Below are positions 53,281 through 56,173 of a stretch of 64,000 nt of DNA, one piece after another. A program made the translations under genes and the position numbers. The stretch is taken from positions 1 through 64,000 of the forward strand of contig JBDRTY010000002.1 of assembly GCA_039801085.1 (NCBI GenBank). Direction: 5' to 3'. A model generated the notes under the pieces. That model was not told the origin of the DNA and did not search any database. It saw only the letters and a list, made by a program, of their open reading frames with translations. The DNA comes from a candidate division WOR-3 bacterium (lineage in GTDB: Bacteria > Hydrothermota > Tepidihabitantia > Tepidihabitantales > Tepidihabitantaceae). The stretch's first letter is position 1, and each line of letters begins with the position of its first letter.

Positions 53281-53991
53281 GTGCAGATCCGGGTGGGCAC
53301 ATCAGGCTGGTTTTACAGCTGGAACCCTGAACGCACCCTTGACTGGTATGCGGCAAATTCGGGACTGAATGCGGTGGAGCTGAATGCCTCCTTTTACCGC
53401 TTCCCGTTTCCCAATCAGATCAAATCCTGGGCAAGGAAGGGTGCGGCGTTGCGCTGGGCGGTCAAGGTCAGCCGGCTGGTGACCCATGTCCATCAGTTCA
53501 ATGCCGCAGCCCTTGAGGTCTGGCACCGCTTTGCCGACATTTTTGCACCGCTGGACCGGCGGATCGATTTCTATCTGTTTCAGTTACCGCCGGCACTCAC
53601 CCCGCGATCAAGAAACCGGATTGAAAAATTTATTCAGCAGGCCGGCCTCGGCAGCCGGCTGGCGCTGGAGTTCCGCAATAGGGAATGGTTCACCTCGGAA
53701 TCCAGCATATGGGCACAGGAGCTGGGAATTACTCTGGTTTCAGTTGATGCACCGGCAGCAAGCGGGTTGCCGCCGGCAGTATTCTGCACCAGCAGAGCGG
53801 TTTATCTGCGCCTGCACGGCCGGACCGGATGGTATCAGCACAACTATACTCCAGCGGAGTTGAGGGAGATCGCCGGACGGATTGTGTCTGCAGCACCAGA
53901 TGCGGTTTATGTTTTTTTCAATAACGATCAACACATGCTGGCGAATGCAAGGCAGATGTTAAGCATCCTTAAGCGCCATGCTCGAGATTGA
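53281..53991 (+). CDS. DUF72 family protein
   Basis: This 236-residue protein has a TIM-barrel fold. I-R-V-G-T-S-G-W opens it, then E-L-N-A-S-F-Y-R-F-P, the W-A-V-K-V-S-R and L-E-F-R-N-x-x-W blocks, and Y-x-R-L-H-G at the end are family features; a conserved FNND motif (VFFNND) closes it. The family has no firmly established activity. I start at GTG 53281 because the promoter -10 box lies inside any longer frame. It overlaps rtcA by 14 bp. Confidence 0.88.
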   Translation: MQIRVGTSGWFYSWNPERTLDWYAANSGLNAVELNASFYRFPFPNQIKSWARKGAALRWAVKVSRLVTHVHQFNAAALEVWHRFADIFAPLDRRIDFYLFQLPPALTPRSRNRIEKFIQQAGLGSRLALEFRNREWFTSESSIWAQELGITLVSVDAPAASGLPPAVFCTSRAVYLRLHGRTGWYQHNYTPAELREIAGRIVSAAPDAVYVFFNNDQHMLANARQMLSILKRHARD

Positions 53992-55024
53992 CGGCAGTTA
54001 TGGTTCTGGCGGTGGCCAGATTTTGCGGACCGCACTCGCCCTGAGTGCAATTCTGGGCAGGGGTTTCAGTATCAGCAATATCCGGGCACGGCGTCCCAGG
54101 CCCGGGTTGATGCCTCAGCACCTCGCTTCAGTCCGGGCGGCAGCCGGGCTGTGTAACGCCCGGGTCCGGGGCGGCGTGCTCGGTTCAACCGAGCTCGATT
54201 TCGAGCCCGGCTCAATTCAGGCGGGGAATCTGGCCGTGGATGTTGCCGGAGAAAGGGGGAGTGCCGGTGCAGTAACCCTGGTTGCCCAGACAGTTATGCC
54301 AATCATGCTTTTTGCTTCCCAACCCTGCACAGCAACTTTGCGGGGTGGGACTCATGTTCCGTTCAGTCCGGTTTATGAATACCTTGCGCGAGTGTTGATT
54401 CCGTTTATCGGAAATCTGGGCTACCGGGCTGAAGCCCGGCTGTGCCGGGCCGGATTTTATCCGGCAGGGGGTGGCGAGGTTCTGCTCAGGACCATGCCGG
54501 CGCAACCACCGGGCACAGACCGTATTGTCCTTGCTGAACCGGGCAGGCTGAAAGGGCTAAGGGTTGTCTCGGCGGTAAGCCGGCTGCCGGTAAGCATCGC
54601 CGAGCGTCAGCTTAAACGGTTGGGCATGCGGTTGAAAAAGGCAGCCTTGGAGGCTGAGGTGCGGGAGGTGCCGGCAGACAGTCCCGGGACCTATCTGTAT
54701 CTGGAGGCGGAATACGAACGGATTACCGTCGGTTTTTCGGCGCTGGGCAGAAAGGGAAAGCCGGCTGAGGCGGTGGCGGACGAGGTTTATGAGCAGTTTG
54801 CTGCCCACGAGCAGACCGGCTGTGCCCTTGACCCGCACCTTGCAGACCAGTGCCTGATTTTTCTGCTGCTGCGGAATTTACCATTCACCTTCACGACGAG
54901 CCGGGTGACCGACCACCTTGAGACCAACATCTGGCTGCTCAACTGTTTTCTGCCGGATCGGAAGATCGAACTGCAGGTTAATCAGGACCGGACCGGGGTG
55001 GTGCGGGCAGGATGCAGCAGGTGA
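53978..55024 (+). CDS. rtcA: RNA 3'-terminal phosphate cyclase
   Basis: This 348-residue enzyme converts RNA 3'-phosphate to 2',3'-cyclic phosphate using ATP via a covalent histidine-AMP. D-G-S-Y-G-S-G-G-G-Q-I-L-R-T-A opens the family, R-P-G-L-x-x-Q-H follows, and the nucleophilic histidine is in ALDPHLADQ near residue 290. Length is normal. No RtcB ligase or RtcR regulator is adjacent; the coupled partner is a DUF72 protein, an unusual pairing. Confidence 0.94.
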   Translation: MLEIDGSYGSGGGQILRTALALSAILGRGFSISNIRARRPRPGLMPQHLASVRAAAGLCNARVRGGVLGSTELDFEPGSIQAGNLAVDVAGERGSAGAVTLVAQTVMPIMLFASQPCTATLRGGTHVPFSPVYEYLARVLIPFIGNLGYRAEARLCRAGFYPAGGGEVLLRTMPAQPPGTDRIVLAEPGRLKGLRVVSAVSRLPVSIAERQLKRLGMRLKKAALEAEVREVPADSPGTYLYLEAEYERITVGFSALGRKGKPAEAVADEVYEQFAAHEQTGCALDPHLADQCLIFLLLRNLPFTFTTSRVTDHLETNIWLLNCFLPDRKIELQVNQDRTGVVRAGCSR

Positions 55025-55038
55025 ACTCAAAAATTTAT

Positions 55039-55066
55039 TTGACAAGGGTAAAAAATTTGTTAAATT
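55039..55066 (+). promoter_or_regulatory. Promoter of the 55073 RNA
   Basis: TTGACA (55039-55044), 16-nt spacer, TAAATT (55061-55066), start expected near 55073, where the closing stem begins. Confidence 0.75.
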
Positions 55067-55072
55067 AATAAT

Positions 55073-55212
55073 GGTGAGGTGGAGGCGGTTGTTTCAGGCG
55101 ACGGAACGGCATCTCAACCTCCTCAAAAAGCCCAAAGGAATGCCCTCGCATTCCAATCCCACCAAAAAGCCTCGCCTGAAACCAGCCCTGGCCGTCTTCA
55201 CCTCACATTTTT
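55073..55212 (+). ncRNA. Candidate structured RNA with anti-Shine-Dalgarno loop
   Basis: This stretch of about 140 nt has its own promoter and ends in a TTTTT run (55208-55212). A 15-bp closing stem pairs 55074-55088 with 55192-55206 (two G-U pairs). An 11-bp perfect stem pairs 55091-55101 with 55172-55182, and a 7-bp hairpin GGAATGC/GCATTCC stands at 55137-55154. Between the stems lie open stretches rich in C and A, including CCTCCT (55118-55123), complementary to AGGAGG ribosome binding sites. CAAAAAGCC occurs twice. A 47-residue frame starting at ATG 55071 also exists, so coding cannot be excluded. No known RNA family is recognised. Confidence 0.6.
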
Positions 55213-55258: not shown

Positions 55259-56173
55259 CTAAAAACGGGCGCTCAGTTTCAGCGCCAGGCGGATGGCAGC
55301 GAGCATTGAACCGGGGTCAGCCCGGTGCTGTCCGGCGATATCGAATGCCACGCCGTGCAGGGGAGAGGTGCGGATTCTGTTCAGTCCGAGCGTCACATTG
55401 ACCCCCGCACCGCGGGCGAGCAGTTTTGCGGGAATCATTGCCTGATCGTGATACATCGCGACAAACCCGTGAAACCGGTCAAGATTGACAAAGATGGAAT
55501 CGGCGGGCAGAGGCCCTTCAGCCCGGATCTTTTTTCGCCGTGCCTGAATTATTGCCTGACGGATGCGCTGTTCCTCTCCCAGCGAAAACTCGTCGGCATG
55601 AGGGTTGAGGGCGAGTACGCCGATTGCCGGCTGCTCAATTCCTTCCAGCTGAAGGTATTCATTCAGCAGGATAATTTTTTCCCGCACCCGCGCCGGGGTA
55701 ATCTGCCGTGCCACCCGGGCAAGTGGCAAATGAATCGTGACAAAGATTACCCGGAATTGCGGTGACCAGGCAAGCATGGCATAGCGCCGGGCGTGCAACC
55801 GGTGGGCAAGAAATTCGGTCTGGCCCGGAAACCGGAATCCGGCAAGCCGGAGCGCACTTTTGGAAACCGGCGCAGTCACGAGTGCGGAGATGCGGTTCTG
55901 CTTCAGCAGGGTCGCGCCCGCCTCCAGCGCCTGCAGTGCCGCAACGCCACAATTTTTCTGCACCCGGCCGTACTGATAATCGCCGACCGCTCCGGTATCA
56001 TAGAGTGCAACCGGAGGGAGCGAAACCTTCAATCGCGCCGCCTCCCTTTTCAGCACTTCAGCCGGACCGATCAGCAAAAGCCGGCGGTGAGCAACCTGCT
56101 GCAACGCCTTGATCACGATCTCCGGGCCGATCCCCGCAGGGTCACCGAGGGTGATACCGACCGGCGGCCGCAT
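55259..56173 (-). CDS. pdxA: 4-hydroxythreonine-4-phosphate dehydrogenase (PdxA)
   Basis: This 304-residue enzyme oxidises 4-phosphohydroxy-L-threonine with NAD(P) in the DXP-dependent route to pyridoxal phosphate. ITLGDPAGIGPEI, L-A-H-R-L, Y-H-D-Q-A-M-I-P and H-G-V-A-F-D-I-A-G give the substrate and metal ligands. It is slightly short (usual 320-330) but complete. The ATG at 56173 has GAGGAT and lies 10 bp after the ABC permease stop. It is the last gene of the ABC operon; other PLP genes are not in the window. Confidence 0.93.
   Translation of the reverse strand: MRPPVGITLGDPAGIGPEIVIKALQQVAHRRLLLIGPAEVLKREAARLKVSLPPVALYDTGAVGDYQYGRVQKNCGVAALQALEAGATLLKQNRISALVTAPVSKSALRLAGFRFPGQTEFLAHRLHARRYAMLAWSPQFRVIFVTIHLPLARVARQITPARVREKIILLNEYLQLEGIEQPAIGVLALNPHADEFSLGEEQRIRQAIIQARRKKIRAEGPLPADSIFVNLDRFHGFVAMYHDQAMIPAKLLARGAGVNVTLGLNRIRTSPLHGVAFDIAGQHRADPGSMLAAIRLALKLSARF

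Follow-up and report, generated by a model that had tools for sequence, protein, structure and literature searches.

Locus, promoter and genomic setting

The window analysed here is the whole 64,000-nt stretch of DNA from a candidate division WOR-3 bacterium (the source genome, G000). A gap of 234 bp between the convergent genes rtcA and pdxA holds a promoter, a strongly folding stretch and a U-run (Table 1), which bears out the sequence-only reading of a self-contained structured RNA with promoter, stems and U-run between two convergent genes. The RNA gene occupies window positions 55073-55212 on the + strand (about 140 nt), is present as a single copy with its own sigma70-type promoter, and ends in the source genome with the U-run at 55208-55212. 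The promoter TTGACA-N16-TAAATT was the top-scoring one within 90 nt upstream (p = 0.010 against shuffles), and the transcript would start about 7 nt past the -10 box.

Table 1. Positions of the RNA, its parts and the flanking genes in the window
Feature	Positions	Strand	Description or basis
rtcA (RNA 3'-phosphate cyclase)	53978-55024	+	name from Pfam
sigma70-type promoter	55039-55066	+	TTGACA 55039-55044, 16-nt spacer, TAAATT 55061-55066
RNA core, 134 nt	55073-55206	+	covariance-model match; 20 of the order's 28 genomes have a homologue
P1 5' arm (closing stem, 17 bp including G-U)	55074-55090	+	fold and alignment
P2 5' arm (11 bp, bulged base, 2 bp more)	55091-55104	+	fold and alignment
Single-stranded loop motif CAUCUCAACCUCC (consensus CAUCUYAACCUCC)	55110-55122	+	unchanged in 19 of the 20 homologues
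P3 hairpin, 7 bp, loop CCUC	55137-55154	+	fold
3' single strand with C-rich box CCCACC	55155-55169	+	alignment
P2 3' arm	55170-55182	+	fold and alignment
C-rich 3' bulge, P2-P1 junction	55183-55189	+	CCC in 19 of 20, not in G027
P1 3' arm	55190-55206	+	fold and alignment
U-run after P1	55207-55212	+	sequence
pdxA	55259-56173	-	name from Pfam

The genes next to the RNA vary among its homologues: pdxA is convergent in several genera of family f1, and rtcA precedes the RNA in G000 and G001 and follows it in G027 (neighbours outside the window were identified from protein starts, without a domain scan). Thus, the RNA behaves as a stand-alone gene.

Secondary structure, covariation and strand

The region 55039-55212 folded at -64.9 kcal/mol (z = -5.87), and none of 200 dinucleotide shuffles folded as well. 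The 134-nt core folded alone gave z = -6.91, and 15 core sequences folded singly (7 + 8) all had z <= -4.15. In the source fold, P1 is followed by the 7-nt C-rich 3' bulge, P2, and a large terminal loop containing CAUCUCAACCUCC and P3; in other clades, hairpins with C-rich loops occupy the place of P3. The stem lengths read from the sequence alone held for P3 (7 bp) and P2 (11 bp, to which 2 bp across a bulge were added), whereas P1, read as 15 bp, was found to comprise 17 bp including G-U pairs.

Three checks that could have refuted the sequence-only reading came out in its favour, as the stems co-vary, no Rfam family matched and the 47-codon frame is not conserved. In the alignment of 20 sequences, 84.6% of cells pair and two-sided changes were observed in 27 of the 30 modelled pairs, a count that leans toward the structure since the alignment was fitted to it, although P1 and P2 are nearly gapless. 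The changes fell in 16 of 17 pairs of P1 (84.1% of cells paired) and in 11 of 13 pairs of P2 (85.2%). The covariation score was 0.515 against a shuffled mean of 0.235 and was reached by none of 500 shuffles; controls with slid partners scored at most 0.215. Further pair types were no higher than in shuffles (53 vs. 51.2; 172 of 500 shuffles reached 53). The stem sequences differ between families and yet co-vary.

The stem cells contained 49 G-U against 13 A-C combinations, as a + strand RNA should show. A near-consensus + strand promoter was detected in all 20 homologues (p from 0.000 to 0.035 each), whereas an opposite-strand promoter reached p < 0.05 in three. Together with the U-run, the promoters and the G-U bias fix the + strand. 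The U-run and P1 likely form an intrinsic terminator, and at least four T were present in the tail after P1 in 16 of the 20 homologues. Family f2 has its -10 box farther from P1, with 38-51 nt between the two (L065, L067, L068, L069 and L071); its RNA should therefore have a 5' leader of about 30-45 nt and measure about 175-190 nt in all. In one f2 member, G019, the sequence GCAUCUUC in the leader echoes the loop motif.

Distribution of the RNA

By BLAST, the element was 87-95% identical in two other genomes of the genus and 90-96% identical in genus g5, and genus g6 had only a 50-nt core in common with the source element. A covariance model (R1) built from 11 sequences of the own genus, g5 and g6 gave full-length matches in 20 of the 28 genomes of the order (E <= 0.0103), spread over 10 genera and families f1, f2 and f5. 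Weaker matches in G003 (E = 1) and at a second place in G013 (E = 0.35) were judged to be noise. A broader model (R2), trained on the 20 homologues, found the same 20 among 65 genomes of the class, with a further weak match in G009 (E = 0.09), and the same 20 again among 147 genomes of the phylum (candidate division WOR-3); as these 20 were its training set, R2 is informative only in having detected no others. No convincing homologue outside the order was detected with the covariance models among the 147 phylum genomes. The phylum and class searches (more than 40 genomes) were run with stricter filters, and a permissive-filter rescan of the 8 remaining genomes of the order and 23 other genomes of the class gave nothing better than E = 0.39.

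Each of the 20 carriers has one homologue in the covariance-model searches. No plasmid match to the element was found. A repeat or mobile element was ruled out by the single copy in the source genome, the one match per genome (bar the weak extras) and the missing plasmid match. Six sampled pairs from different genera had global identities of 58-72%. A large part of an order of uncultured WOR-3 bacteria has retained the RNA, which as a family can be regarded, on sequence evidence, as virtually certain.

Known RNA families and coding frames

A scan with Rfam 15 (4227 families) found nothing that reached gathering score anywhere in the 64-kb window, and at E up to 10 returned only two snoRNA chance matches far below the cut-off. 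The statement that the RNA is not 6S or SRP RNA is supported; for RNase P RNA and tmRNA it rests on the Rfam scan of the window. For 6S RNA (RF00013) and bacterial SRP RNA (RF00169), the genome has separate genes elsewhere, an above-cut-off 6S at G000:C3:60249-60416 (L041) and the SRP RNA at G000:C1:165389-165487. Across the family, 6S RNA was found above cut-off in 14 of 18 genomes, with no match in genus g5 (G007-G009), all three members of which carry the new RNA; SRP RNA was above cut-off in 16 of 18.

Two longer + strand frames overlapping the RNA had no Pfam match; one of them (54918-55211) shares its reading frame with the 47 codons that start at ATG 55071, and the Pfam search covered these codons only within it.

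The invariant loop mirrors a translation start site

The sequence-only reading placed CCUCCU in the open part of the RNA. This hexamer (55118-55123) lies inside a 19-nt unpaired run, and the predicted unpaired probability of its CCUCC is 0.94. The exposed anti-Shine-Dalgarno (anti-SD) sequence was thus upheld, but the conserved unit proved to be longer, namely CAUCUYAACCUCC. Its reverse complement, GGAGG-UURAG-AUG, represents a Shine-Dalgarno (SD) sequence, a 5-nt spacer and a start codon. The sole deviant among the 20 homologues is G008, with one change, where the end reads CAAACTCC. The unpaired probability of the whole motif was 0.90 in the source and averaged 0.82 over the 20, the lowest value being 0.67 (G027). 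A conserved and accessible anti-SD segment in a gene of its own, one hallmark of trans-acting anti-SD sRNAs, is therefore present, with transcription judged from the promoters.

A box of CCUCC, CCCUCC or CCCACC follows P3 in 14 of 20 homologues and is missing in the six members of genus g6. The P1 5' arm contains GGAGG in genus g1 but not in f2, and a switch between loop and P1 was accordingly ruled out as a conserved feature.

Complementary start sites in the genomes

In the 65 class genomes, the exact motif had 72 matches, compared with 2 for the reversed pattern. The RNA itself accounts for 19; among the other 53, the complementary AUG begins an open frame of 60 or more codons in 48 cases and does not in 5. 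Exact GGAGGTTRAGATG start sites occurred as 5 non-RNA copies in the 20 RNA-bearing genomes and as 48 in the 45 genomes without the RNA; this difference could be avoidance or merely SD usage, the two being inseparable here. A scan for GGAGGUURAGAUG with one mismatch in 10 RNA-bearing genomes, one per genus, yielded 122 sites, comprising 10 that are the RNA and 112 non-RNA sites, against 40 reversed controls. The excess lay mainly in G000, G005, G007 and G027, and family f2 was poor in sites (15 non-RNA vs. 7 controls in four genomes; 1 vs. 4 in G018), so that target enrichment is present overall but not in every clade. Three of the 112 sites (two on contig C109 of G010 and one on C23 of G016) lay outside the cross-genome protein comparison.

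Many of the f1 and f5 sites precede genes with hydrophobic N-termini, as judged by eye. AGGAGG, said by the sequence-only reading to be used by many genes, was indeed found in the 18 nt before the start of 123 genes out of 673 (800 kb of G000). It preceded 57 of 204 genes with a hydrophobic N-terminus and 66 of 469 others in G000 (C1:1-800000), about twice as often, and 24 of 125 against 27 of 223 in G007 (C1:1-400000), 1.6 times as often, where genes were called by a simple script rather than a tested gene finder and signal peptides by a hydrophobicity rule that admits membrane proteins as well. Since this bias is a property of strong SD sequences, it is no evidence of RNA action there.

By pairing energy with 300 start regions, the native loop ranked above each of 100 shuffled versions of itself, in G000 as well as in G007. 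When the spacer was permuted, the native middle ranked 7th (G000) and 10th (G007) of 30 by mean start-region pairing energy, showing no tuning; generic start-site pairing thus does not explain the invariance of CUYAA. Mean pairing was slightly better at starts than at internal AUGs in G000 (-11.37 vs. -10.85) but no better in G007 (-10.28 vs. -10.48), and strong pairs (<= -16 kcal/mol) were commoner at starts in both genomes (0.159 vs. 0.090 and 0.112 vs. 0.073). No conserved target was detected over 207 ortholog pairs, the correlation being 0.41 for the loop and 0.50 for the plain SD complement, and the top G000 target had a G007 orthologue that lacks a site (-30.2 vs. -9.4). The target-site statistics are positive, although modest and uneven.

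Three genes of G000 (C1, within 1-800000) have the identical start region aaaagcggaaaggagguugaggAUGAAAAAGGCA and the same first 19 residues (MKKASLFRLLILSTAVLAG), but differ beyond that point, a pattern that copying of a start-plus-signal-peptide cassette might produce.

Proposed mechanism and alternative explanations

The family has a fixed strand, a conserved structure, an invariant loop and complementarity to start sites; we infer that the RNA is transcribed, pairs with target mRNAs and represses them. The best explanation, which we hold to be somewhat better than an even bet, is a trans-acting anti-SD sRNA that would block translation initiation on many targets, as suggested by the exact start-site geometry of the motif together with proven alphaproteobacterial analogues. 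The long P1-P2 stem would keep the large terminal loop open and display CAUCUYAACCUCC, which would pair with mRNA start regions, with CCUCC opposite the SD sequence, CAU opposite the AUG and, where the fit allows, the middle opposite the spacer. Such pairing would keep 30S subunits away from start sites, and translation from a AGGAGGUUGAGAUG start region would be repressed. Targets would be biased toward mRNAs with strong SD sequences; in G000, such sequences are enriched among genes whose products start with a hydrophobic stretch and would be secreted or reside in the membrane. It is rather doubtful that the RNA is a dedicated 'anti-start-site' RNA, whose loop would imitate both the 16S anti-SD (CCUCC) and the initiator-tRNA anticodon (CAU) in their natural spacing and act as a global brake on initiation.

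The anti-SD model leaves the invariant spacer unexplained, as real start sites vary there, so that a protein ligand or one dominant target may still be involved. In the first case, the loop (AUC..ACCUCCU beside 16S AUCACCUCCU) would be a protein-binding site that mimics the 16S 3' end, binds a protein such as Era or S1 and regulates ribosome assembly or stability. In favour of this, conservation covers all 13 positions and the CUYAA middle with them, beyond the need of generic SD pairing. The 16S of a class relative (locus L087) ends in GGAUCACCUCCUUU, and the loop would resemble the target of Era. However, the loop has three extra bases between AUC and ACCUCC relative to 16S, and the placing of CAU relative to CCUCC is exactly that of an mRNA start site; we consider the protein site rather unlikely. 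We likewise consider unlikely an antisense regulator of one specific mRNA per genome, with the loop mirroring that start region: although each genome has a single copy of the RNA, conservation extends to the spacer portion of the loop and some near-perfect sites exist (e.g., a G000 gene with AGAGGAGGUUUGAUGCCG, -29.9 kcal/mol), no site in the same gene family recurs across genera, bar three weak pairwise similarities, and G000 has no exact match except the RNA itself.

The layout of closing stem, open region and terminal hairpin, a strong-type promoter and the presence of the RNA in genus g5, which gave no RF00013 match, would suit a second 6S-like RNA, a long hairpin whose open bubble sequesters RNA polymerase. 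The locus itself has no RF00013 match while the same genome has a separate above-cut-off 6S, and an invariant 13-nt loop is unlike 6S RNA, so that we regard this as quite improbable. Still less can be said for the minus strand, where the conserved GGAGG-N5-AUG is a perfect start-site sequence and might serve a tiny ORF or a leader. Eighteen of the 19 exact copies have an antisense frame of 2-25 codons and G027 has one of 77, the frames vary between clades, and promoter, U-run and G-U pairs all indicate the + strand; a minus-strand leader was rejected on these grounds, and the reading is very improbable. The 47-codon + strand frame from ATG 55071, which the sequence-only reading had named as the alternative, is open in G000. 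Its ATG was found in 1 of 20 homologues, the open length ranged from 3 to 66 codons, and single-base indels occur in the loops; the frame is not conserved, a protein was ruled out on this basis, and we give the coding reading next to no credence.

Significance and comparison with known systems

The RNA represents a new family outside Rfam 15, well supported as a family, that would work like a known kind of RNA. It is thereby added to a phylum for which a literature search found no described small or non-coding RNA from WOR-3 or Stahlbacteria (a keyword search reliant on 'WOR-3' being indexed). If the anti-SD mechanism is true, anti-SD riboregulation would have arisen here independently, with a seed whose single invariant segment takes in the SD, the spacer and the start codon. 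With a covariance model and a fixed loop to hand, the RNA can be tested directly in laboratory strains.

With 6S RNA (RF00013), the new RNA has in common a long closing stem, an open region, a terminal hairpin and a stand-alone gene, but it differs in having no match to that family and in coexisting with a separate 6S gene. For alpha-r14 and AbcR, PMC7143759 describes unpaired anti-SD motifs, rich in C and U, that are directed at ribosome binding sites. The AbcR1/AbcR2 (alpha-r15) RNAs and other CU-rich anti-SD sRNAs resemble the WOR-3 RNA in this unpaired motif; AbcR1/AbcR2, however, have three stem-loops and are bound by Hfq, whereas the WOR-3 RNA has no Rfam match.

The closest likeness is to the alphaproteobacterial alpha-r14/NfeR1 ('cuckoo') RNAs, which, according to PMC10746234 and PMC7143759, combine an invariant anti-SD motif in unpaired loops, hypervariable stem sequence and a sigma70 promoter. 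NfeR1, a proven regulator, silences ntrB via CCUCCUCCC loops (PMC10746234). These RNAs pair with the translation initiation regions of many mRNAs, and the same is proposed here. Membership in their family was rejected: they have three hairpins, each with CCUCCUCCC, which is absent from the aligned homologue sequences, whereas the WOR-3 RNA folds into one long P1-P2 stem and one large loop, with one anti-SD motif conserved throughout. Unlike theirs, its motif CAUCUYAACCUCC spans SD, spacer and AUG, and it belongs to another phylum. On the best explanation, the WOR-3 RNA would work like alpha-r14/NfeR1 and yet be unrelated to them.
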